DNA of 32,885 bases from Candidatus Dormiibacterota bacterium (GTDB taxonomy: Bacteria > Chloroflexota > Dormibacteria > Dormibacterales > Dormibacteraceae): the NCBI GenBank assembly GCA_003151935.1, contig PLYZ01000054.1, positions 8,746 to 41,630 of the forward strand, read 5' to 3'. Both the position numbers and the translations under genes were made by a program. The notes beneath the pieces are model-generated. The model made no database searches. It was given only the letters and a program-made list of their open reading frames with translations, and had not been told where the DNA came from. Below, in pieces: positions 6,558 through 19,884 of the stretch. Positions within the stretch are counted from its first letter, which is position 1; each line of letters starts with the position of its first letter.

Positions 6558-7475
6558 GTGGCCCGGCCTTCCTTCAGCCTCGAGCAGGTGAGGTCCTTCG
6601 TCGCCGTGGCCGAACACGAGCACATCTCGAAAGCGGCCGCCTCCCTGTTCCTGACCCAGGGCGCGGTCACCCAGCAGGTCCGGCACTTCGAGCGGGCGAT
6701 GGGACTGCAGCTGCTGGAGCGTGACGGCCGCGGCATCCGCCTTACCGACGCCGGCCGAACGCTGGCCGTCGCGTGCCGGGCGGCGCTGCGATCGATGCAG
6801 GTCCTGGAGGACACGGCCGAATCGATGAAGTCGCTACAAGCAGGCTCGCTACACCTTGGAGCCAGCCCGACGTGCGCGACCTACTACGTGCCGTCCCGTC
6901 TGGCGGAGTTCGCCAAACAGCACACGGGGATCAAGCTCAGCATGACCGTCGCACCTTCCGCCGACCTCAACGGCCAGGTCCTGGCCGGAGCATTGGACTG
7001 CGCTTTGATCGAAGGGGAGCCGGACCCCGAGCTGCTGGCGGTGGTGCTGGATCACGACGAGCTCATCCTGGTCGCTCTTCGGGATCATCCGCTTGCGGCG
7101 CTCCTCCGGGTCACCTCAGCCGACCTGGCCCAGCACCGCTACATTGGACGGGTCCCGACCTGGGCGGCGGAGCGAAGCGTTCGCGACCTTCTCGGCGAGG
7201 ACTTCGACCACACGGATACGTTGAACCTGGGGCATCCCGAGTACGTCCGTGCGGCAGTGCTCGCGGGACTTGGATACGCGGCCCTTCCACGCTTGGCCGT
7301 GGCAGCCGACCTCGAGTCTGGTTTGCTGAAACGACTACCGGGACCATCCAGCCGCCGTCCCATCCGCGCGATCCGCCGCCGAGCCACCGGTGGTCCCGCC
7401 ATGGAGCAGTTCTGGCAGCTCCTCGCCGCAGAAGCGCCGCCGACGGCTGTTGTCTCAGCAGCCGAGCGCCCCTGA
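6558..7475 (+). CDS. LysR-type transcriptional regulator
   Basis: A 305-residue LysR-family protein. The N-terminal winged HTH is seen in FSLEQVRSFVAVAEHEHIS, then KAAASLFLTQGAVTQQVRHFERAMG and LTDAGRTL. From about residue 90 a periplasmic-binding-like effector domain follows (LHLGASPTCATYYVPSRL, then ALDCALIEGEPDPELL). The start is a GTG with a TAATAT hexamer 6 nt upstream; an ATG at 6550 is out of frame. LysR proteins often control the divergent neighbour, here the pilin gene, and the exporter pair 18 bp downstream is another candidate target. The inducer is unknown. Confidence 0.9.
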   Translation: MARPSFSLEQVRSFVAVAEHEHISKAAASLFLTQGAVTQQVRHFERAMGLQLLERDGRGIRLTDAGRTLAVACRAALRSMQVLEDTAESMKSLQAGSLHLGASPTCATYYVPSRLAEFAKQHTGIKLSMTVAPSADLNGQVLAGALDCALIEGEPDPELLAVVLDHDELILVALRDHPLAALLRVTSADLAQHRYIGRVPTWAAERSVRDLLGEDFDHTDTLNLGHPEYVRAAVLAGLGYAALPRLAVAADLESGLLKRLPGPSSRRPIRAIRRRATGGPAMEQFWQLLAAEAPPTAVVSAAERP

Positions 7476-10630: not shown

Positions 10631-10707
10631 TGGTCGGGGAGGGGGGATTTGAACCCCCGACCACCTGACCCCCAGTCAGGTGCGCTACCGAGCTGCGCTA
10701 CTCCCCG
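10631..10707 (-). tRNA. tRNA-Pro (anticodon GGG)
   Basis: A 77-nt cloverleaf with encoded CCA. The acceptor stem is CGGGGAG/CTCCCCG, the D-arm GCGC...GCGC, the anticodon stem CCTGA/TCAGG around loop CTGGGGG, and the T-arm GGGGG-TTCAAAT-CCCCC. Discriminator A is followed by CCA. A TCTTTTT run about 10 nt past the CCA may end the transcript. Nucleotides 1-39, up to the end of the anticodon loop, are duplicated at 19846-19884, which marks the integration of the element to the right. Sequence immediately 5' of the gene now belongs to the element. Confidence 0.96.
10669..10707. repeat. Left attachment site (39-bp direct repeat in tRNA-Pro)
   Basis: This 39-bp segment is identical to 19846-19884. 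It covers the 5' half of tRNA-Pro from the first acceptor base to the last base of the anticodon loop. It is the crossover region left by site-specific integration; the tRNA here remains whole. Confidence 0.9.
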
Positions 10708-10713
10708 TTCCTT

Positions 10714-10795
10714 ATCGCATCTGATTCTTTCCTAGTGCGATGGTCTCGCGTCTGCGGCTAGTTCGACAAGGCCGCGTAAAAGGCTGGGAATCAGA
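10714..10795. repeat. Left-end inverted repeats, candidate integrase arm sites
   Basis: TCTGATTC (10720-10727) and GAATCAGA (10788-10795) form a perfect 8-bp inverted pair. The same GAATCAG core occurs twice at the other end of the element (19821-19827, 19829-19835). A second pair, ATCGCA/TGCGAT (10714-10719, 10736-10741), surrounds the first site. The position just inside the attachment site fits arm-type binding sites of a tyrosine integrase or its excision factor. Confidence 0.45.
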
Positions 10796-10839
10796 GTCCA
10801 CATTCTAGGTAGGCATCGTCAGCGGCAAGGCTTCGAGCG

Positions 10840-10851
10840 TATTGTCCGAGG
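10840..10851 (+). promoter_or_regulatory. Leaderless promoter of the rightward module
   Basis: TATTGT (10840-10845) lies exactly 6 nt before the GTG at 10852, with no ribosome site between. This matches the arrangement seen at host genes in the window and supports this start codon. Confidence 0.4.
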
Positions 10852-11124
10852 GTGGCCGAGAAGTGGCGGGTCCTCGTAACCGTAGGTAATCCCCACAACC
10901 CTGTCGCTCATGCCATCACACAGAGGTTGCCCCCTGACACGTCCCCCGTATATATGGACTTCAGTGGCGACCCGGTTCTTTCCGTGGTGAGGGTCACCGT
11001 CGAGGCTGACTCCCCCGAAGATGCCCACACCCTGGCCGAGACCCTAGTCAAGCAGGCGTGTCTTGCCAGTGAATGGAACTGGACCCCTGTGGCGACCGGC
11101 GCCGAACGAGCGCCTCAGGCGTAG
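10852..11124 (+). CDS. Hypothetical protein, first gene of the rightward module
   Basis: A 90-residue protein that I do not recognise. It has alternating hydrophobic strands (WRVLVTVGN; VLSVVRVTVEADS) and helix-forming stretches (VAHAITQRL; EDAHTLAETLVKQACLA), so a small alpha/beta fold is likely. It has no signal peptide or membrane segment. The GTG start is chosen for the TATTGT hexamer 6 nt upstream. It is nearest to the left attachment site and reads away from it. Confidence 0.6.
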   Translation: MAEKWRVLVTVGNPHNPVAHAITQRLPPDTSPVYMDFSGDPVLSVVRVTVEADSPEDAHTLAETLVKQACLASEWNWTPVATGAERAPQA

Positions 11125-11200
11125 ACTCCGCGGTGACGGCGCCGCAGCGCGGGTGTTGGAGCCACCCGGTCACGACGCCGCCTGAGTGAGAGTAACGCCC

Positions 11201-11593
11201 ATGCGTTCTAAGCAATCGCCGCACACCCCGCCCAACGTCAACGTCGGCGACGTGATCCGCGTCCACGTTCCACCGCTCCCCGATCTCTGGACGGTCGACG
11301 CCGTGCTTGTGGAGCAGCGGGACAGCGGAGCTTACTTTTTACGCATCTCGCAGAACAGCGGGCAGATAAGCCGGACGATCGCCCCGCGCGGCTTTGAGAT
11401 CGTGAGCCGCTCAATCTCCATTCCGGTCGAGCTCCGTGCTTTACGCGCCAGCCTCCGACCGGAGATCCTTAGGGCGATGAAAGACCTACGTGCTTCTCAA
11501 TCCGCTCTATACGCGGAGCAACTCGGGGTAGAACCTCCGTTGTCCGTTCCGATCGAGCTTCCTACCCTTGGCCGCGGGCGGCTGGTGATATGA
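11201..11593 (+). CDS. Hypothetical protein of the mobile element
   Basis: A 130-residue protein of unknown family. The N-terminal half is beta-rich (VGDVIRVHVPP, LWTVDAVLVEQRDSGAYFLRIS, SRTIAPRGFEIV). The C-terminal half is helical (VELRALRASLRPEILRAMKDLR). The ATG at 11201 is preferred; an in-frame GTG at 11186 would add five residues. Its TGA overlaps the ATG of the next gene as ATGA, indicating co-translation. Confidence 0.6.
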   Translation: MRSKQSPHTPPNVNVGDVIRVHVPPLPDLWTVDAVLVEQRDSGAYFLRISQNSGQISRTIAPRGFEIVSRSISIPVELRALRASLRPEILRAMKDLRASQSALYAEQLGVEPPLSVPIELPTLGRGRLVI

Positions 11594-11814
11594 GCGACCA
11601 CTTCAAGGACGGCAACCCGACTGCTGAGGAGCGTGCGGTCATCGAGCGGGCATGGCACGCAGGAGAACCCCTACCGCCCGGATGGGTCATGGTCGAACTG
11701 CCGGCCGGGTTTGTGACCCCGACCGGCAAGGTGATTCCGCCGCGCACCTTCGTGATGCTCAGGGAGAGCGACGCCGCGGCCATGTATGCCGGTCAGTTCG
11801 GAGACGACAACTGA
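11590..11814 (+). CDS. Hypothetical small acidic protein
   Basis: A 74-residue protein coupled to the previous gene by an ATGA overlap. It has an acidic helical start (DHFKDGNPTAEERAVIERAW) and a compact beta segment (GWVMVELPAGFVTPTGKVIPPRTFVML). There is no recognised domain. Its position in a three-gene overlap chain supports it being real. Confidence 0.6.
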   Translation: MSDHFKDGNPTAEERAVIERAWHAGEPLPPGWVMVELPAGFVTPTGKVIPPRTFVMLRESDAAAMYAGQFGDDN

Positions 11815-11870
11815 CTACCCCGCTACGGTCACGATCGCGAGCCGACGCAGCGGCGGAATCCCGCGCCACG

Positions 11871-12329
11871 GTGGCGTCCGTAAGGGAACGTAAGCTCCGA
11901 CCTAAGCCTCGGCGGTGGACCGAAGCGCAGCCCGGACAGCTACGCGGAATCCTTGCCGAGGTCCAGGCGGGCGACAACAGGCGCCTCAGCGCTCAGGCGC
12001 GGCGGATGCTGGCGCTAATCACTGCCCGCCCCGATGTCTCACGATCACGGAAATGGACGACCGCCAAGGCGGCGCGGGTGACCGTCGACGGCGATGCGCT
12101 GCGCCGGCACTTCCACCATTGGGCGGCAAGCGCCATGCGTGATTCACTCACCCTCAAAGCGCGACTGGCTGCAGCGGAGCTCGAGCGCCAGTTCGGAGCA
12201 TTCTATAACTCTCTGGACGCGAGATTGCTGGATGAGGAGCGGGTCGAGGGGCGCCGCTGGGACAACGCCGAAGGCGTTCTCTCGCTCCGAGTCTTGACCG
12301 GCGACCTAAGCTATCTCGCGCATGCGTAG
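11871..12329 (+). CDS. Hypothetical basic helical protein
   Basis: About 152 residues from a GTG at 11871. The first third is very basic (RERKLRPKPRRW), and the rest is predominantly helical (LRGILAEVQAGDNRRLSAQARRML; LKARLAAAELERQFGAFYNSLDARLLDEERVEGRRW). The frame is open further upstream, and a CTG at 11811 overlapping the preceding TGA is a possible non-canonical start, so the N-terminus is uncertain. The charge suggests nucleic-acid binding, but no known fold is recognised. Confidence 0.55.
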   Translation: MASVRERKLRPKPRRWTEAQPGQLRGILAEVQAGDNRRLSAQARRMLALITARPDVSRSRKWTTAKAARVTVDGDALRRHFHHWAASAMRDSLTLKARLAAAELERQFGAFYNSLDARLLDEERVEGRRWDNAEGVLSLRVLTGDLSYLAHA

Positions 12330-12450
12330 GACGCCTAAGCGCAAGCCTCTGACGCCTGAGCAACGCGAGTTGCGAGAGTTGAGACTGGCCGCGATCCGGC
12401 AATGGGCTGCCGAGATCACGGCGGGTAAGGTGCGACCCCGGCAACGCTAG
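12322..12450 (+). CDS. Very small basic protein, last gene of the rightward module
   Basis: A 42-residue protein starting MRRTPKRKPLTPEQRELREL and ending in a basic VRPRQR. It starts 8 bp inside the preceding gene. It is a single basic amphipathic helix and is unrecognised. Its TAG stop is half of a CTAG palindrome whose other half is the stop codon of the converging leftward gene. That tight convergence argues that both reading frames are used. Confidence 0.5.
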   Translation: MRRTPKRKPLTPEQRELRELRLAAIRQWAAEITAGKVRPRQR

Positions 12451-12794
12451 GGGTCCTCGCCTTCATCAGCCAGCTCGCCCGGCAAGACGCGAAGGGACGG
12501 CGGAATTCCGTCACCGTGCAAAAACTCGCGGCCAAATATGGCATCTGCACACTCACTCGAGCCCTGCGTGCGTCCAGCTGAGCGTGCCGCCTGAGTAACG
12601 GCTAGGACTTCGTCTAGGGTCCATGGCGCGGCAGGTTCAGAAAGGTGACGCTCTTGGGCCTTGGCTGCCTGCTGCGAGGTAGCGGCGGCCTCTTGTTTGA
12701 GGGACTCGTCTAGTTTCCGAAGACGTTCGATTGCTTCGGGGTCACGCGAGAACGCGTCATGTACTTCGCTCATTCGTAAAGTTTGATCGCTCAC
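12447..12794 (-). CDS. Hypothetical protein, last gene of the leftward operon
   Basis: A 115-residue protein with a coiled-coil-like middle (EAIERLRKLDESLKQEAAATSQQAAKAQE) and a less regular C-terminal half. Its ATG overlaps the tape-measure stop as ATGA. A gene just after a tape measure is often a minor tail or tail-tip component in phages, but the size and sequence give no support for a specific role. Confidence 0.65.
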   Translation of the reverse strand: MSDQTLRMSEVHDAFSRDPEAIERLRKLDESLKQEAAATSQQAAKAQERHLSEPAAPWTLDEVLAVTQAARSAGRTQGSSECADAIFGREFLHGDGIPPSLRVLPGELADEGEDP

Positions 12795-14497
12795 GCACCG
12801 GCGCCCCCACGCATCCTGTTTAAGCCGGCCGCGGTGAATGCTTTATAGAGATGAGCCTCAGTCCCGGTCTGGCCACCTGGCACTGCGGTCACGGCTGCGA
12901 TCAACTGACGGAGAAGCGAGTTCGTTTCACTCGCGTCGCCACCACCAGCTCCACCTCTCTGCGGTCCGATACTTACCCTCTCGGGCGACCCGCCCTCACC
13001 AGCCAGGAAGAGGGTCGGCTTGTAAACCGTTCCTTCGAAACCGGTGGCGGCCCCGATTACACCAGAGCGATGTGCCCCAGCTGGAACCGCTGATCCGTTA
13101 CCAGATCCACCACCGAACACGCTCAACGCTTGGCTGATGACATTCGCGCTTGTGCCAAGACGATCGAAGAAGCCCCCGATGTTGTTCAGGATTGGAGTGA
13201 GCGTGGTTTGTAGCCAGCCGCCGAACCTCTGCAGGTCGCTCCATGCTCCGTTGACGGCATCACGGAACCAGCCGACATTCTTGTAAGCCCAAATGACGCC
13301 GACCACTAGGGCCGCGACGGCGATGGTGATAAGGCCGATCGGGTTCGCATCCATGGCCAGGTCGAGTAGGAGCATGGCCGACCGCAAGAACCCAACTTGA
13401 GGAATCGCGATGGCGATCGCAACCACCAGTCTTCCGATCATCACTGCCATTCCAATGGCGTTCGTGATCGCCAGCGCGACGTTCCAGAGCACCCACGCAG
13501 CTCCGATGGCGACGATGTACGGGGCCAGAGTCGACAGCAAGTTCCAGGCCGTCTTCAAGTCCGGTCCGAGCGTCTTCAGCCAGCCGGCGAATGACACGAT
13601 CTGAGGCATTAGGTTTGTGACCATCTGGGTTGCCCAGTCAGCGATCACGGGAACGATCGGAGCGACGGCAGCTAAGAACTGATCGACATAGGGGATCAAG
13701 ACCGTTCCGATCTGGACTGCCGCGTGGTCGAGCTCTGCCCTGAGCGCGGACATATGGCCACCCAGGGTTTGGGACGCTACCGAAGCCGAGCCGCCTAGCT
13801 TGCCCGACAGCGCATCAAGGATCTGGCTCAGGCCGGCCGTGCGATTTGACTGCTCTGTGGTGATTAGAGCAACCTTGGCTTGAGCGGCCTCGAGCACCTT
13901 GAGGGCGGCAACGTGAGCTGGACCATGCGTGGTGGCGACCTTCTCCTCAGCCTTGCCCACCGCCGTAATGGCGTTAGCAAGCGCAGTAGCTGAGGGGATG
14001 GTGGCCGGCAGCGTGATGCCGAGCTCTTTGAGTGCTCGGCCTGAACCCTGCATCCCGAGCAGGACATCCTTGGCGGATGTTGCCAGGTCGAGATGTTTGG
14101 CCGCAGCAAGGTCTGCGATCGGACCCATGGCGGACATCGCTTGAGTCCACGTAAGGCCGCCTTCGGTCAGTTGGGTCATCACCGCGAGCGTTTGGGTGTC
14201 TGTATCACCGAAGACCCGCATCTTGGCCTCCAGGGCCTCGAGCGCAGTGCTCATCTGCGGCGTGACCTTCTCCCCAGCATCCTTCAGCGCGTTGTTGAGG
14301 AGAGCCTGAGCGGACTGAAATTGAGCCGCCATCTTGGCCGCCTCCCCGAGCGCGGCCACTGCCGCGACGCCGACCACGACGCTGACCAGGGCGGCCGCCT
14401 TGGCCATCCCCATGAGGCCGGATTCGGCCTGCTGGAACGTCTGCAGGCCTTCGCTCTTGGCGCGAAGTAGTACCTCGAGCATGTAAAGATCAGACAC
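12791..14497 (-). CDS. Phage tail tape-measure protein
   Basis: A 568-residue protein with the features of TP901-type tape measures. An Ala-rich N-terminal region (about residues 30-60) leads to AAKMAAQFQSAQALLNNALKD. It continues through VFGDTDTQTLAVMTQLTEGGLTW and AKDVLLGMQGSGRALKELGI. Hydrophobic segments occupy about 330-420, including WAYKNVGWFRDAVNGAW after them. The C-terminus is Gly-rich. Tape measures set tail length and enter the host membrane during DNA injection; at this length a tail of roughly 80-90 nm would follow from the usual rule. It is the only clear virion gene in the element. Confidence 0.85.
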   Translation of the reverse strand: MSDLYMLEVLLRAKSEGLQTFQQAESGLMGMAKAAALVSVVVGVAAVAALGEAAKMAAQFQSAQALLNNALKDAGEKVTPQMSTALEALEAKMRVFGDTDTQTLAVMTQLTEGGLTWTQAMSAMGPIADLAAAKHLDLATSAKDVLLGMQGSGRALKELGITLPATIPSATALANAITAVGKAEEKVATTHGPAHVAALKVLEAAQAKVALITTEQSNRTAGLSQILDALSGKLGGSASVASQTLGGHMSALRAELDHAAVQIGTVLIPYVDQFLAAVAPIVPVIADWATQMVTNLMPQIVSFAGWLKTLGPDLKTAWNLLSTLAPYIVAIGAAWVLWNVALAITNAIGMAVMIGRLVVAIAIAIPQVGFLRSAMLLLDLAMDANPIGLITIAVAALVVGVIWAYKNVGWFRDAVNGAWSDLQRFGGWLQTTLTPILNNIGGFFDRLGTSANVISQALSVFGGGSGNGSAVPAGAHRSGVIGAATGFEGTVYKPTLFLAGEGGSPERVSIGPQRGGAGGGDASETNSLLRQLIAAVTAVPGGQTGTEAHLYKAFTAAGLNRMRGGAGA

Positions 14498-14678
14498 CGT
14501 ACTTTGCCTCCACGACCGCCTTTAGTCGGTCGAGAATCCGCCGGTAGGTTTTCGGTTGGGCGCGGAGTTCCTCTTTCAGCGCCGCGTCCAACGTGGCCCA
14601 TATCTCACGGCCGGTCTCCACGAGAATCTGCTCGTTCGCGTTGCGCCAATGCTCCACAGCCTCGTCTTCGTCAGTCAT
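14490..14678 (-). CDS. Small acidic/basic helical protein upstream of the tape measure
   Basis: A 62-residue helical protein (EDEAVEHWRNANEQILVETG; YRRILDRLKAVVEAKYGV). It overlaps the tape-measure gene by 8 bp and the upstream gene by ATGA. In tailed phages this slot is held by the second tail-assembly chaperone. The position fits, but I find no canonical slippery heptamer in the upstream gene, so the role is only suggested. Confidence 0.65.
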   Translation of the reverse strand: MTDEDEAVEHWRNANEQILVETGREIWATLDAALKEELRAQPKTYRRILDRLKAVVEAKYGV

Positions 14679-15205
14679 GTCGCGCTCGTCTCGGCCGTAA
14701 CAGAGCCGTCTTTGCCCTTCGTAATTTTCGTGGTCCGCTTACCGGCCTTGCGGGGCGTACCTGCTTCCTTGACCGCCTCAGCGATCGACTGAAGGCCCTG
14801 CAGGATAGGTGAGGTCACCTCGTCCCACGTCATGACTACCGGAGGCTTGGCGCTGGCGGCCTTTTGATGTAAGTTCCAAACTGCGCTGAAGCCCTCGGCA
14901 GTCTCGACCAGGCTCAGCAGCTCCGCGCACTGAGGGCAGGCTTCGACATGATCGACCAGTCCGGGCTCTGTGAGAATCCTCTGGGCGAGCCATGCCTCCA
15001 TCGAGGGAAGTAGCGCCTCCGCCGACTCAGCGGTGAGGAACCCGTTGGGCGTTTTGAGATGGAACTCGGCCAGGAACCACGCGCGCTCAGCACCTATCAG
15101 GAGTTGCGGCCCTCGACGGGTGACGACCGGCGCGTTGCCGGCCGCCCCCCAAGGAGACCCACCAGGGGAAGGAGTACCCCGAGCGGGTGTCCGTGTCTCG
15201 CTCAC
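14675..15205 (-). CDS. Hypothetical protein, possible tail-assembly chaperone by position
   Basis: A 176-residue protein. The N-terminus is Gly/Pro-rich and disordered. A helical core follows, with VDHVEACPQCAELLSLV (a single CxxC with a nearby His). The tail is basic, KAGKRTTKITKGKDG. Two genes upstream of a tape measure, it occupies the place of a G-type tail-assembly chaperone. The CxxC motif also recalls zinc-finger anti-sigma proteins, but only one Cys pair is present. It is coupled to both neighbours by 4-nt overlaps. Confidence 0.65.
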   Translation of the reverse strand: MSETRTPARGTPSPGGSPWGAAGNAPVVTRRGPQLLIGAERAWFLAEFHLKTPNGFLTAESAEALLPSMEAWLAQRILTEPGLVDHVEACPQCAELLSLVETAEGFSAVWNLHQKAASAKPPVVMTWDEVTSPILQGLQSIAEAVKEAGTPRKAGKRTTKITKGKDGSVTAETSAT

Positions 15206-15450
15206 CGCTGCCCGGTCCTCGAGGTTTCCTCGGTGTAGAACATCGGCGCGCGCGGAAACGTTGTCGGCTTCACGTTTCGCCCCAGCTGCTCGAGCTGGGT
15301 CTTGAGGCTGGTCCCCCTGAATGCCTTGCGCACCTGCTCCTGGCGAGTCCGCTGGCGCATCTCCTGCTCCAAAATGCGCACCTCGGCGCCTATCGCGTCT
15401 TTCTGCTGTTGGACGTGAAAGCGATCTACTGGGTACAGGTCGACGTTCAT
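15202..15450 (-). CDS. Hypothetical coiled-coil protein
   Basis: An 82-residue protein beginning MNVDLYPVDRFHVQQQKD, then a long charged helix (AEVRILEQEMRQRTRQEQVRK). The ATG at 15450 overlaps the previous stop in an ATGA. The frame stays open far upstream, but that part is an overlap with the zinc-ribbon gene and is not used. Family unknown. Confidence 0.65.
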   Translation of the reverse strand: MNVDLYPVDRFHVQQQKDAIGAEVRILEQEMRQRTRQEQVRKAFRGTSLKTQLEQLGRNVKPTTFPRAPMFYTEETSRTGQR

Positions 15451-15962
15451 GATTTCGTCTCCTCTTCGAGATTTGCGAGCGTGGTTTCGATCAGATCCGC
15501 CAACCCCAAAATGGAGGGCATCAGCGGTCGCAAGTTGCCGATCGAGAAGTCGCCGAGCGTTGCGCTTGCGATACTCAATCTGTCTTGCAAGTAGCCGAGT
15601 GTTTCGCGGGTACCGAGCCCTGAGTTGACAGACTTCCGCGCCACTGCATCCGCTCCGCTCATCGCCAATGCAGCACCTCGCAGAGCTTCGGCTGCCCGCT
15701 TCAGGGTTGCCGAATCGTCCACGGTGAGCGGGAGAACCTTCGGCTTCCCAGGTTGCAGGGCACTGACGATCGTGCCTAGCGGACCCCGCTCGAACGGGAT
15801 GGGGTCGGACATGATCACCTTCTGAATGAGTGAGCCGCACTTCGGGCAGGCCGGCTGCCCCATCCTCCATAGGGCGCCGCACTGATCGCACTCGTAACGG
15901 CTTCCGCCCAGACCAGATTCAGCCGCGCGGAGCTCTTCCACGGTGGCTAACTTCCGGCTCAT
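15447..15962 (-). CDS. Zinc-ribbon protein of the mobile element
   Basis: A 171-residue protein with a classical zinc ribbon, CDQCGALW and CPKCG (Cys25, Cys28, Cys39, Cys42). A mainly helical C-terminal two-thirds follows (LKRAAEALRGAALAMS; LGYLQDRLSIASATLG). It could bind nucleic acid or act as a partner of a replication or transcription protein; nothing more specific is supported. It is joined to both neighbours by ATGA overlaps. Confidence 0.7.
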   Translation of the reverse strand: MSRKLATVEELRAAESGLGGSRYECDQCGALWRMGQPACPKCGSLIQKVIMSDPIPFERGPLGTIVSALQPGKPKVLPLTVDDSATLKRAAEALRGAALAMSGADAVARKSVNSGLGTRETLGYLQDRLSIASATLGDFSIGNLRPLMPSILGLADLIETTLANLEEETKS

Positions 15963-16141
15963 CGGCCCATCACCGTCTTGCGAGGTGTCAGGATTCCCGT
16001 CCCTGGCAGCGCGCGGCCAGTCCCGTAGGGCTTTGATCCGTCGCGGTCGGTCGGATCGGGTTCGGGTGCTTTCCAGTTACCTCCAGGGCGCCGTCCAGTC
16101 AGAGCGTCGGTCGCGATCGGGGTTCGTCGAGTGTCTGCCAT
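15959..16141 (-). CDS. Small basic hypothetical protein
   Basis: A 60-residue, Pro/Gly-rich and basic protein, probably unstructured. It has the best ribosome site of the operon: AAGGAGG, 8 nt before the ATG, which overlaps the stop codon of the HTH gene upstream. It ends in an ATGA overlap with the zinc-ribbon gene. Function unknown. Confidence 0.6.
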   Translation of the reverse strand: MADTRRTPIATDALTGRRPGGNWKAPEPDPTDRDGSKPYGTGRALPGTGILTPRKTVMGR

Positions 16142-16154
16142 TTTCTTGGCCTCC

Positions 16155-16475
16155 TTAATTCCAGCCCGCCACTGACGGTGGCTTTGGCTTGGTTGTCGTT
16201 GCAGTCGGCGCCGGCACAGACGGACGGTTGGGTACCGGGATCGGCATGGGGTCGCCGCGCTGCAGCTCCACCTTCGGCGCCCCAGACCTCGACCATCGAC
16301 GTAGGGCTTCGTCCAGGGCGGCCGCTGAAATTCGAACTGGACCCCAGCGATGAGCGCCGAGCTGGACCGCCTCGATCGAGCCAGCGTCGAGGTACCGGCG
16401 CACGGTGCTCACGGCCACGCGCAGCCGGCGCGCTACTTCTTGGACGGTCAGCAAGTCGGACTCCGCGGCGCTCAT
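16155..16475 (-). CDS. AlpA/Xis-like helix-turn-helix DNA-binding protein
   Basis: A 106-residue protein with a MerR-like HTH of the excisionase/AlpA type: LLTVQEVARRLRVAVSTVRRYLDAG, then a wing and VRISAAALDEALRRW. The tail from about residue 65 is Pro/Thr-rich. Such proteins act as recombination directionality factors or activators of excision genes in phages and islands. With an integrase in the same element, an excisionase role is the simplest reading, though a plain transcription factor is possible. The start overlaps the upstream stop as ATGA. Confidence 0.75.
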   Translation of the reverse strand: MSAAESDLLTVQEVARRLRVAVSTVRRYLDAGSIEAVQLGAHRWGPVRISAAALDEALRRWSRSGAPKVELQRGDPMPIPVPNRPSVPAPTATTTKPKPPSVAGWN

Positions 16476-16864
16476 GCGTGTCCCTGCTGCTTCGTCGCGT
16501 GAACCGTGACGCCTGTTTTCTCCACGCCGCCCGAGATCGGGGAAGATTCCAGACGCTCGCAAAAAGACCGGAGATTAAACTCGCCGCTGATCGGGACGCT
16601 CCGCGACAAGAGCCGATCGCTTTTTTCGCTTAACCGGGGGTGTGTCATCGCCGGTTCCTCCACGTCGGCTGCTTGCGCTTCCTCATCACGCACGAAGCAG
16701 TTGAGATAGCCCTGATGCCTACAGACACGACCTAAGACCTTGCCTGCACTGATCGGAGCCCGCGAAGGGTCCACCCCTAACCGGATGAGCTCATCCGTGA
16801 GCTCGGCTCTCCATACCGCGCCTGGCAAGACGATGAGCGTCCGCGTGATGGTGGTATCACTCAT
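16472..16864 (-). CDS. Hypothetical protein after the ATPase gene
   Basis: A 130-residue protein of unknown family. The N-terminal part is TLIVLPGAVWRAELTDELIRLGVD; a middle segment reads CRHQGYLNCFVRDEEAQ, and the C-terminus is polar. There is no membrane segment or clear motif. It lies between the RecA-fold ATPase and the HTH gene, with ATGA overlaps on both sides, so its product is made together with theirs. Confidence 0.6.
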   Translation of the reverse strand: MSDTTITRTLIVLPGAVWRAELTDELIRLGVDPSRAPISAGKVLGRVCRHQGYLNCFVRDEEAQAADVEEPAMTHPRLSEKSDRLLSRSVPISGEFNLRSFCERLESSPISGGVEKTGVTVHATKQQGHA

Positions 16865-18000
16865 GCCTGAACCTCCATGAGTGCATCGGCCTGATCCGCG
16901 AAGTAGTCGTCATGGGCCACCAACCCCACCTCCAACTTAGGAGACGGTTCGTTGGAGGTTGCACCCGCCCAGGTGTAGGTCTTGCCCTTTTGCTCCCCAG
17001 CCCCGATCGGTGGTTGCCGGCGAATCCTTCCCTCGCGAGCGAGTTTGGTTAGTGCCTGTCGGACCTGTTCGAGACTAGGACGAGGGTCATCCAGGCCAGC
17101 GTGGAGTTCTTTGGTGGTCTGAAACTCGGCCGTCACGCTTGCGAGCAGCCGGTTTACGACCTCATCTAGCCGTAGGGCTTTGGGGTCTCCGAGAAGTACA
17201 AAGGTGCAACCTCCAACGGAGGGTTGTATAGGTTGGAGGTTAGGTTGAACCTTCTCGTAAATCGCCTCCCGGGACTCGATCAGCCGTGCATAGGTGCGGA
17301 TCAGTCGGCGATCCCTAGCCTGGCTGGGATCGCGAAGGACTTCGAGCGCAATGTCGAAACTGCCGAGCAAGGCGTGACCGCCAGCGATACCCTCGCCGTT
17401 CTCTCCTCCACCCTTGCGCTGGTGGTGAGCCATAACGAGCGTCTTGTCCCTCTTGCGGGCATCAGCTATCCACGGCGTGACCGCGCGCGCAATCTCCGAG
17501 TTGTCTTTCTCGTCCTGCAGCCGGAGAAGGTTGCGGAGCGAGTCCACGATCACGATGGCCTCGTCTCCGTCTCGAGCCCGACCGCTAAGAGTCTCTACGT
17601 CGGCGCCAAGACCGAAGACGACGCGCAGGCCCTTCCAATCACCCGAAGCGCCAGCCAAGCGAGAGGCCCACATAACTTGGGGCTCCTCAGTGATATAGAG
17701 CACCTCGTGGCCTTCGCTGAGCCATTCCCTAGTCAGGGCCACAAGCAGCTCGGTTTTGCCAACTCTGGGATAGCCGGACACCAGATGCGACCAGTCCAGC
17801 ACGAAGTAACCAGAGGCGCCGAGCATTGGCAGATATGGCAAGTCGTCCATGCTCAACTCGGAAGCCACGAGCTCCTCGCCGCCAAGCTCTAAGAGCGGAG
17901 GCTTTGCCCGCCAGCTATGTCCGTTCTGTGAGAAAGGCCGGTCGCCAGGCGACACCTCGTCCAATCCAGCGAAGTCCGGATACGTTGTGATGTCGTTCAT
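16861..18000 (-). CDS. RecA-fold ATPase (RepA/AAA_25-like) with C-terminal winged helix
   Basis: A 379-residue protein. Walker A is GYPRVGKT (76-83), Walker B is AIVIVDSL with Asp153, and TLVMAHHQRKG (H192/H193) provides a sensor-like motif. This is the plan of hexameric RepA-type helicases and related AAA_25 ATPases. From about residue 300 a winged-helix segment follows (FQTTKELHAGLDD, LEQVRQALTKLAREGRI). A replicative helicase or initiator of the element is the likely role; loading or recombination functions are alternatives. The ATG at 18000 overlaps the upstream stop as ATGA; the longer open frame to 18126 has no support. Confidence 0.85.
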   Translation of the reverse strand: MNDITTYPDFAGLDEVSPGDRPFSQNGHSWRAKPPLLELGGEELVASELSMDDLPYLPMLGASGYFVLDWSHLVSGYPRVGKTELLVALTREWLSEGHEVLYITEEPQVMWASRLAGASGDWKGLRVVFGLGADVETLSGRARDGDEAIVIVDSLRNLLRLQDEKDNSEIARAVTPWIADARKRDKTLVMAHHQRKGGGENGEGIAGGHALLGSFDIALEVLRDPSQARDRRLIRTYARLIESREAIYEKVQPNLQPIQPSVGGCTFVLLGDPKALRLDEVVNRLLASVTAEFQTTKELHAGLDDPRPSLEQVRQALTKLAREGRIRRQPPIGAGEQKGKTYTWAGATSNEPSPKLEVGLVAHDDYFADQADALMEVQA

Positions 18001-18188
18001 GCCACGGCCTTCTGGTCGCCGATGAGCGCTCGAGCCCAGCGCCGATGCTCGAACTCTCCGAGCGCCGCGAAGTCGGCCAGCCGCTGACGAAAGCGCAAGT
18101 TGCGCTCTAGTCGACACGCGAGCCATTCGCGGTGCTCATCGCTGCCCCAGAGAGGCGGCCATGGGTTAGAGTGGTTCGGGGCGTGCAT
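17997..18188 (-). CDS. Small Trp/Arg-rich hypothetical protein
   Basis: A 63-residue protein (NPWPPLWGSDEHREWLACRLERNLRFRQ...). It starts 23 bp inside the XRE gene and ends in an ATGA overlap with the ATPase gene. The composition suggests a helical, nucleic-acid- or partner-binding peptide. Unrecognised. Confidence 0.6.
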   Translation of the reverse strand: MHAPNHSNPWPPLWGSDEHREWLACRLERNLRFRQRLADFAALGEFEHRRWARALIGDQKAVA

Positions 18189-18516
18189 CTAGTCCATGCA
18201 CCTCCGTCGTTGGCGGGACCGTCTCGGCGAGTGATCGCGCTGAGACGGTTTTCTTTTCCGGCGCTAAGACGAGCATGTCGGCGCCGATCATCAGCGGGAT
18301 TCCGAGCAGTGCCTCAGTGATCCGCCGAAGGGTCCGCTCTGAAACCGGACGCCCATGACGAGCCCGAGACATCGTCGGCTCAGGGATGCCCGCCCGCGCG
18401 GCGAGAGTGCGCTGGTTTACGCCCCGGATGCCGAGCTCGAAATCGATTCGAGCACTATCCAGGCGGACGCCGCTCTTGCGCGGAAGGGTGGACGACAGGG
18501 TGTCTGTCTTTGCCAA
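18166..18516 (-). CDS. XRE-family HTH regulator, likely element repressor
   Basis: A 116-residue protein with a Cro/CI-type HTH at about residues 28-70 (VNQRTLAARAGIPEPTMSRARHG, then SERTLRRITEALLGIPLMIGADMLVL). The C-terminal tail is short and has no peptidase or oligomerisation domain. It is first in the leftward operon, next to an inverted repeat, so autoregulation is likely. The TTG start at 18516 is provisional; its GGAGG lies rather far upstream (13 nt). Confidence 0.8.
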   Translation of the reverse strand: MAKTDTLSSTLPRKSGVRLDSARIDFELGIRGVNQRTLAARAGIPEPTMSRARHGRPVSERTLRRITEALLGIPLMIGADMLVLAPEKKTVSARSLAETVPPTTEVHGLDARPEPL

Positions 18517-18523
18517 AATGGAA

Positions 18524-18547
18524 AGCCAACCTCCATCGAGATTGGCT
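18524..18547. promoter_or_regulatory. Candidate operator upstream of the XRE gene
   Basis: AGCCAA and TTGGCT (18524-18529, 18542-18547) form an inverted repeat with a 12-nt spacer, 8 bp upstream of the XRE start. TTTGCCA is also repeated directly on both sides (18509-18515, 18551-18557). Such symmetry close to an XRE gene fits an autoregulatory site. Confidence 0.45.
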
Positions 18548-18581
18548 GCTTTTGCCAGACCCGGCTTGTGGCGGCCCCTAA

Positions 18582-18655
18582 CGAGTGTCTTTCACTCGCG
18601 GAGTTACCGCCCTGACCGCTTCAGCGCCCAGTATAGCGTGCTCATGGCGCGTCAA
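18582..18655 (-). promoter_or_regulatory. Promoter region of the leftward operon
   Basis: On the minus strand TTGACG (18650-18655) precedes TATACT (18630-18635), with a shorter than usual 14-nt spacer. Downstream is a perfect hairpin CGAGTG/CACTCG with a 5-nt loop (18582-18598). This is the only good promoter candidate upstream of the 12-gene run. The hairpin could be an operator or leader structure. No gene is seen in 18517-18717. Confidence 0.4.
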
Positions 18656-18717
18656 CATGCCTATTTGCCCACCCCCTTGCGGACGGTTGGACCGCTTACC
18701 CCCGCCTGGCGTACCCC

Positions 18718-19689
18718 TCAGTCGGCGTCCTTCTGCAGGTAGCCCATCATCGACTCATAGAGGTCGGTCGAGCTCGGGTGGCTGTAAGTGTTCGCGATCA
18801 TGCTGAGGTCAGCGTGTCCGAGGATGCGCTGCAGCGTTACCGGGTTGTTTGTCCTGCGCATAAAGTCGGTCGCGAACGAGTGCCGCAGAAGGTGAGGGTA
18901 GACACGCTTTTTGATGCCCGCACGCTCAGCTGCAACGTCGACCATATCCTCAGCGCTGCGCTTGGCCAGGGGTGCGTACTCGCCATTCGGCCGGCGACGG
19001 GCGGTGATGAATAGGTGGCTCGTAAGAGCATCCGCAGGGCGCCGTAGGGTCAGCTGGCGCAGGAGAGAGAACAGGGCGGGCCGTACTGGCAACTCCCGGC
19101 CGCTCTCGCCCTTAGCGCCTCCGCCCTTCGATCGGTGACGGATCAAGACGAACCGGCCAGCGCGGCCGCGGTCTGCTAGGTCGTCAACTGTGAGCGCCAG
19201 GGCCTCCCCGAGACGCAGCCCGGTCGAGCACATCAACTCGAGCAACGCCTGGTCGCGGATCGTCTGTCCTGACTCCACCAGCGCTTGCATCTCAGCCCGT
19301 GTCAGAACCTTCTCACTGAGGTCCTGCTTGGGAACCTTGGGCCGCGGAACGCTCACGCCTGCCGGGACGCTTCCAGCCGCCCACTTGATGAACTGGCGAG
19401 TGCTCCGCAGGTAGGTGGCCACGGTGGCAGGTGAGAGTGCCTTACCGTCGTCCTTGCGCCGGCTGTTGAGTTCAGCCGCCAGACGGTCTATGGCGCGCTG
19501 GTCGAGCTGGTCTAGGCGGTTGATCCCCTGAGCCCGACAGAACGGCAGAAGGATCCGCTCCAGCCCATCGGCGTAGAACTCCCGGGTGCGCTTGTTGCGT
19601 GTCCGCGCCTCGACGTTGACGAGGTAATCGGTGATCGCGTTCTCGAGCTCTGTGACGGCGCCGCCTGGCAGGACTTTGACCGTTGGCAA
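18718..19689 (-). CDS. int: Tyrosine recombinase (integrase) of the element
   Basis: A 323-residue site-specific recombinase with an N-terminal SAM-like core-binding domain (about 15-105) and a catalytic domain. The active-site set is complete: Arg159 (STGLRLGEAL), Lys188 (RHRSKGGG), His266 and Arg269 (YPHLLRHSFATDFM), His292 (GHADLSMIANTYSH) and nucleophile Tyr302. It lies 156 bp from the right attachment site, so it is the enzyme that inserted the element into tRNA-Pro. The TTG start has a GAGGGAG ribosome site 7-8 nt upstream, and a good promoter lies at 19739-19767. Confidence 0.95.
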   Translation of the reverse strand: MPTVKVLPGGAVTELENAITDYLVNVEARTRNKRTREFYADGLERILLPFCRAQGINRLDQLDQRAIDRLAAELNSRRKDDGKALSPATVATYLRSTRQFIKWAAGSVPAGVSVPRPKVPKQDLSEKVLTRAEMQALVESGQTIRDQALLELMCSTGLRLGEALALTVDDLADRGRAGRFVLIRHRSKGGGAKGESGRELPVRPALFSLLRQLTLRRPADALTSHLFITARRRPNGEYAPLAKRSAEDMVDVAAERAGIKKRVYPHLLRHSFATDFMRRTNNPVTLQRILGHADLSMIANTYSHPSSTDLYESMMGYLQKDAD

Positions 19690-19708
19690 GTGCGTACTCC
19701 CTCTAATT

Positions 19709-19727
19709 GGTGCGGCTGTAACGCACC
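19709..19727. repeat. Inverted repeat in the integrase leader
   Basis: GGTGCG and CGCACC (19709-19714, 19722-19727) with a 7-nt spacer lie just downstream of the predicted int transcription start. It could be an operator or a leader hairpin that limits integrase synthesis. Confidence 0.4.
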
Positions 19728-19738
19728 TGACCTTGTAA

Positions 19739-19767
19739 ATGATAAGGCTCCGTCAAGAGTACGTCAA
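19739..19767 (-). promoter_or_regulatory. Integrase promoter
   Basis: On the minus strand TTGACG (19762-19767) and TATCAT (19739-19744) are separated by exactly 17 bp, a near-consensus sigma-70 arrangement and the strongest promoter match in the window. The predicted start near 19732 gives a leader of about 43 nt. CGTCAA is repeated (19751-19756, 19762-19767), so the -35 box may be part of a regulatory site. Confidence 0.65.
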
Positions 19768-19820
19768 TGGCTAATCAAGTGCGGTAACCGAATACGCGCG
19801 ATCCTGTTAGCGGAGGTTTC

Positions 19821-19835
19821 GAATCAGTGAATCAG
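19821..19835. repeat. Right-end direct repeats, candidate integrase arm sites
   Basis: GAATCAG occurs twice in tandem with 8-bp phasing (19821-19827, 19829-19835), directly inside the right attachment site. The same heptamer is present twice at the left end in opposite orientations. Confidence 0.45.
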
Positions 19836-19845
19836 GCGAGTACGC

Positions 19846-19884
19846 CCCCCAGTCAGGTGCGCTACCGAGCTGCGCTACTCCCCG
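19846..19884. repeat. Right attachment site (39-bp copy of the tRNA-Pro 5' half)
   Basis: Identical to 10669-10707. Only nucleotides 1-39 of the tRNA are present; the sequence on the element side cannot continue the cloverleaf, so this copy is not a functional tRNA. Confidence 0.9.

Follow-up and report, generated by a model that had tools for sequence, protein, structure and literature searches.

The 9,177-bp insert described here is an intact, compact unit, which we regard with a probability of about two in three as a minimal phage satellite that hijacks the virion of a helper phage and supplies its own tail tape-measure protein (TMP), giving a chimeric tail. It lies in the window, i.e., the whole stretch of 32,885 nucleotides that was analyzed. 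The element carries genes for integration, excision, regulation and probably replication and no recognized particle-building set. Furthermore, a TMP gene standing alone was also found in further small elements of related bacteria, and the element is therefore probably a phage parasite that builds its own version of the helper tail.

The boundaries of the element are precise. It is flanked by exact repeats of 39 nt, which confirms the exact attachment repeats of the initial annotation. Its left end has to be shifted, since the left repeat belongs to an intact tRNA-Pro; the insert proper is therefore 10708–19884 and does not start at 10669 as proposed. In G016 (L108), which represents a different genus of the same family, the gene of the right flank directly follows tRNA-Pro and the insert is absent. 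The GC content of the element is 62.5% vs. 67.2% in the flanks, about 94% of it is coding and the codon-position GC pattern is normal in most of its genes. All 18 genes and the complete integrase proved to be intact as previously described; the genes mostly overlap, and broken or fragmentary structural genes are absent. Within the run of 12 leftward genes downstream of the integrase gene (m1–m12), 8 of the 11 junctions are exact 4-nt overlaps; two others overlap further, by 8 and 23 nt, and the remaining one is a gap of 13 nt. This agrees with the earlier view that this run does not reflect random decay. The features are listed in Table 1.

Table 1. Features of the window element (positions in the window) and TMP loci of other genomes.
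Feature	Position or location	Strand	Observations
Left att copy	10669..10707	-	5' half of intact tRNA-Pro(GGG), 10631-10707
p1-p5, five accessory genes	10852..12450 (10852-11124, 11186-11593, 11590-11814, about 11871-12329, 12322-12450)	+	no family assignment
m12, 115 aa	12447..12794	-	overlaps TMP gene, downstream of it; no family assignment
m11, TMP, 568 aa, intact	12791..14497	-	phrog_991 1e-18, phrog_58 8e-16, phrog_1272 1e-15
m10, 62 aa	14490..14678	-	immediately upstream of TMP gene; no family match
m9, 176 aa	14675..15205	-	mostly helical in low-confidence model
m8, 82 aa	15202..15450	-	no family assignment
m7, 171 aa	15447..15962	-	N-terminal zinc ribbon (weak matches) and predicted helices
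m6, 60 aa	15959..16141	-	no family match
m5, excisionase-family HTH_17, 106 aa	16155..16475	-	TIGR01764 1.6e-10 (above NCBIfam cut-off), PF12728 3e-10
m4, 130 aa	16472..16864	-	no family match
m3, AAA_25 RecA-fold ATPase, 379 aa	16861..18000	-	PF13481 7e-14
Two dyads, AACCTCCAAC-type arms, identical 14-nt spacing	16927..17241 (16921-16965, 17203-17247)	.	within m3
m2, small protein, 63 aa	17997..18188	-	L045 homologue in same gene order, E 3e-5
m1, Cro/C1-type HTH regulator, 116 aa	18166..18516	-	phrog_4583 6e-7; L045 homologue E 3e-6
Tyrosine integrase, 323 aa	18718..19689	-	PF00589 2.6e-26, phrog_1 8e-37
Right att copy	19846..19884	-	exact 39-nt repeat of tRNA-Pro 5' half
G034 (L045)	9.5 kb at tRNA-Arg		55-nt repeats, 93% identical; TMP 431 aa
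G083 (L088)	10.8 kb		26-nt exact repeats; TMP 724 aa; RusA-like resolvase
G070 (L090+L091)	16.1 kb		15-nt repeat, weaker boundary; TMP 848 aa
G046 (L041)	8.8 kb at tRNA-Thr		41-nt exact repeats; TMP 611 aa; capsid protein PF05065 1e-53
G032 (L042)	L042:13002-18805, ends at contig end		TMP 918 aa; large terminase
G006 (L089)	short contig		ordinary tail module
G323 (L150), other class	9.2 kb at tRNA-Leu		exact 56-nt repeats; TMP 693 aa

The 5' half of a tRNA serves as att site also for the L041 element (6702–6742). After integration at such a site, the intact tRNA no longer adjoins the sequence that natively lies upstream of it, so that the element would need to provide a promoter. A simple scan revealed no promoter-like site for the tRNA adjoining the att site.

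On the level of gene content, the regulator, the RecA-fold ATPase and the Xis-like protein named in the initial annotation were all recovered by profile searches, whereby the matches of m1 to Cro/C1-type HTH proteins are weak yet consistent. Judged by its sequence, the ATPase m3 is likely a replicative helicase or initiator, and AAA_25 or primase/helicase proteins are present in other TMP elements too. The TMP matches about ten PHROG tape-measure families. It is the sole recognized virion gene, as had been noticed from the sequence, and searches with Pfam, PHROGs and NCBIfam assigned none of the element products to a terminase, portal, capsid, tail-tube or lysis family. A weak match of m5 to the small terminase family phrog_57 (0.003) was given no weight. 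Likewise, no capsid-redirection, pac/cos or small-terminase function and no tail-assembly chaperone or hub was recognized in the element. Two small genes, m9 and m10, lie ahead of the TMP gene, and their products match no family; from its position, m10 is a candidate tail chaperone. Most small proteins of the element belong to no family, PDB sequence searches gave no informative match, and p4 lacks an ATG, its start probably being the GTG at 11871.

Here, the dyads within the ATPase gene deserve mention. Five near-copies of the AACCTCCAAC type are present in the element and six in the window, compared to 0.84 expected, and none of 100 shuffles reached six. A related AACCTCCAAC copy (18528–18537) lies in a terminator-like hairpin upstream of m1. 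From this pattern the dyads may be considered candidate origin or regulator sites; no counterparts were found near the replication genes of three relatives.

Support for a satellite also comes from recurrence. When 110 genomes of the host's class were searched with phrog_991, and G034 was added via a search with the window TMP, seven loci were judged to be TMP-bearing, the window included; weak phrog_991 matches, nearly all of them in one C-terminal part of the profile, were set aside as a group as non-TMP. Five of the seven, as classed by non-blind reading of gene lists, are repeat-bounded elements of 8.8–16 kb, one is a probable case and one (G006) is an ordinary tail module. No portal, terminase, tail-tube or lysis match was obtained in the five bounded elements, one of which (L041) has an extra capsid gene. 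The probable case, G032, is probably a similar small element cut by the contig end. Between its TMP and large terminase genes only small genes are found, and a serine recombinase at tRNA-Ser adjoins. In G034, regulator, m2 and integrase are homologous to those of the window element (integrase 33% identical). In this element, the TMP is followed by a histidine-rich protein, fibre-like by eye and without a family match.

Several further observations were made at these loci. The 5' part of tRNA-Arg in L045 is repeated 4.7 kb further on (13070–13107 and 17760–17797), and a second insert seems to be present on the side of the tRNA opposite to the TMP element. Beside the TMP gene of L090, a product (12024–12434) shows a weak match to the C-terminal part of phrog_328, a head maturation protease (2e-4). 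Five other small elements of the class (L058, L059, L060, L061 and L062) encode, beside an HTH protein, a capsid protein 26–28% identical to that of L041. They carry a serine recombinase or integrase, while portal, terminase and TMP are absent from their gene lists, and they are possibly capsid-only satellites. The gene that appears to be interrupted is comM-like in the case of L058 and comEC-like in that of L061.

Outside the class the picture is different. Here, 23 TMP loci were read, namely the matches of the window TMP (L055–L057) and 20 of the phylum-wide phrog_991 matches; three on contigs of about 4 kb were left out, leaving 20 evaluable ones. By gene list, 19 of these are ordinary prophage modules, and the TMPs of ordinary prophages in the phylum reside within full structural modules. 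The exception is G323, where L150 also encodes a primase-like protein, an excisionase-like HTH protein and an integrase, with the TMP as the only recognized virion gene. Small elements thus account for 6/7 loci in the class vs. 1/20 outside of it (Fisher P ~0.0002, or ~0.0005 without G032, both resting on the non-blind classification). Pfam scans of the 67 other ORFs of L041, L045, L088, L090 and L150, which covered the G070 element except for its final 1.7 kb, detected no family of capsid, portal, terminase, tail or lysis proteins, nor did such families appear for the same ORFs among the 25 of 75 PHROG families listed.

Some candidates were rejected. The viral contigs with TMP matches that were read (L004, L008, L011, L012, L085–L087) are ordinary phage modules or fragments and not satellites, and G044 (L035) has an ATPase match but its contig contains no TMP. 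Viral contigs yielded no relatives when scanned with the L041 capsid protein, the L045 TMP or the window ATPase, and for the last of these the phage collection contained none either. The genome-contig scan with the window TMP was likewise negative, and that with the window integrase returned a single contig, that of G034 itself, which is deposited under the name Chloroflexi bacterium UBA10874.

The TMP genes of the small elements appear to be of different origin. In BLAST comparisons, the window TMP is 41% identical over residues 195–451 to the TMP of L004, a 43-kb siphophage contig with a complete siphophage module, and it is also similar to those of G032 and G046. The TMP of G046 is closest to the IMG/VR phage fragment L085; for G070 and G032, the most similar TMP is that of the G006 phage module. 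Between the window element and that of G034, the TMPs have little in common (23% over 178 aa), whereas regulator, m2 and integrase are of common ancestry. Since the TMPs of the small elements match different phages, repeated capture is suggested, i.e., several TMP captures from different phages over one inherited satellite gene, as far as similarity scores of fast-evolving TMPs can indicate this.

Mechanistically, the element would excise by means of its own integrase and excisionase-like protein, and its RecA-fold ATPase would drive replication. A tailed helper phage would contribute the capsid and the packaging motor as well as tail tube, tip and lysis functions. During helper infection or induction, the TMP of the element would then replace that of the helper as template for the assembly of the helper tail tube. 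The length of a tail follows its TMP with 0.15 nm per residue. If this usual rule holds, the 568-aa TMP would specify a chimeric tail of about 85 nm, which would favor satellite particles or spoil helper tails. A helper phage was not detected in the genome of the element by the two families searched: the portal PF04860 is absent from five genomes including its own and, with the exception of G032, the terminase phrog_9 is missing from all carriers, its own genome included, all of these being incomplete MAGs from which a helper may be missing.

In 2026, one family of satellites, the PLE of Vibrio cholerae, was shown to control phage tails (PMC12987554). The virions of PLE11 contain the satellite TMP and not the helper TMP, and their tails are about 10 nm shorter. 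PLE1, PLE4 and PLE11 require their own TMP for efficient transduction, which is reduced by 96–99.9% upon deletion of tmp (PMC12987554). Like the window element, they are integrated satellites with their own TMP, in which most virion genes are absent. In contrast to it, they encode a tail-assembly chaperone, PLE11 also a baseplate hub, neither of which is recognizable in the window element. Furthermore, the tail of the PLE helper ICP1 is contractile and the host belongs to another phylum, whereas the window TMP resembles those of siphophages. The likeness refers to gene content and published description, and the window element is not claimed to be a PLE.

Putative tmp genes were also reported in other putative satellites including cf-PICIs (PMC12987554, Extended Data Fig. 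10). Like the window element, these are satellite-like islands with an integrase and a predicted TMP. They are capsid-forming, however, whereas the searches of the window element gave neither a capsid nor a portal or terminase match; the L041 element with its capsid gene and TMP is nearest to their layout. P4-like satellites and PICIs resemble the window element in small size, tRNA-type attachment, regulator, excisionase-like HTH protein and replication-type ATPase, and the PICI-type trio of integrase, AAA_25 ATPase and TIGR01764 excisionase-like regulator is present. However, no capsid-size, packaging-interference or small-terminase gene was recognized; a TMP is found instead. In more general terms, the element shares with satellites that it is a discrete integrative unit with its own integrase and an incomplete set of virion genes.

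Other explanations have been considered. Since its TMP is clearly phage-derived and resembles that of the complete siphophage module L004, the insert could be what is left of an ordinary prophage after the loss of all genes except those for integrase, regulators and TMP. Yet its genes are intact and tightly overlapped, no broken structural gene is left, and the identical reduction to a TMP with a replication and excision kit would have been needed repeatedly, in several genera and at different sites, which makes this reading quite improbable. The preference for a satellite over a reduced prophage is thus supported by the precise, intact unit and the empty site in a relative. It is further supported by five more repeat-bounded TMP elements from other genera, one of them in another class, which lack a tail module, occupy different integration sites and have TMPs like those of different phages. 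No relative was found in which this region forms a piece of some larger prophage. We give very little credence to the idea that the element is a small but complete virus, or otherwise forms particles, with a capsid, portal and terminase that have diverged past recognition. About 12 products are without a family, and the AlphaFold models of the two largest unclassified ones (m9 and m7), a fold check suggested earlier, are of low confidence and helical; they are too poor to exclude a virion fold, so this test is weak. Nevertheless, the largest unclassified product comprises 176 aa, which is small for a portal, a large terminase or an HK97-type capsid protein, and a tailed phage of 9 kb that has just one large virion gene would, to our knowledge, be without precedent.

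It is also conceivable, albeit unlikely, that the TMP is a weapon or decoy, which poisons or competes with the tails of infecting phages and protects host and element, no own particles being formed. This would fit to the TMP being the sole virion gene and to the lack of any recognized packaging function, and tail assembly is an established target of defence (PMC11364771; PMC10884400; Rta of PLE11). However, the TMP is full-length, and integrase, excisionase-like protein and replication-type ATPase are the equipment of a mobile element. Moreover, PADLOC gave marginal matches only and no convincing defence family, and a capsid or terminase gene has been added in related elements.

If the satellite reading is followed, the elements may form a recurrent, convergent class of minimal satellites with the TMP as their sole virion contribution, captured repeatedly from different phages; to this we assign somewhat less than even odds. 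Within that reading, and with the same reservation for both parts taken together, such satellites would be common in this uncultured Chloroflexota-type class and would take over their helpers via the tail ruler alone. Beyond PLE, elements of 9–16 kb with the TMP as sole recognized virion gene are now seen in two classes of the same phylum, integrated at several sites. If this holds true, controlling tail length would be a general way to pirate virions and might suffice on its own, and such compact units would allow the benefit that a satellite gains from its own ruler to be tested directly.
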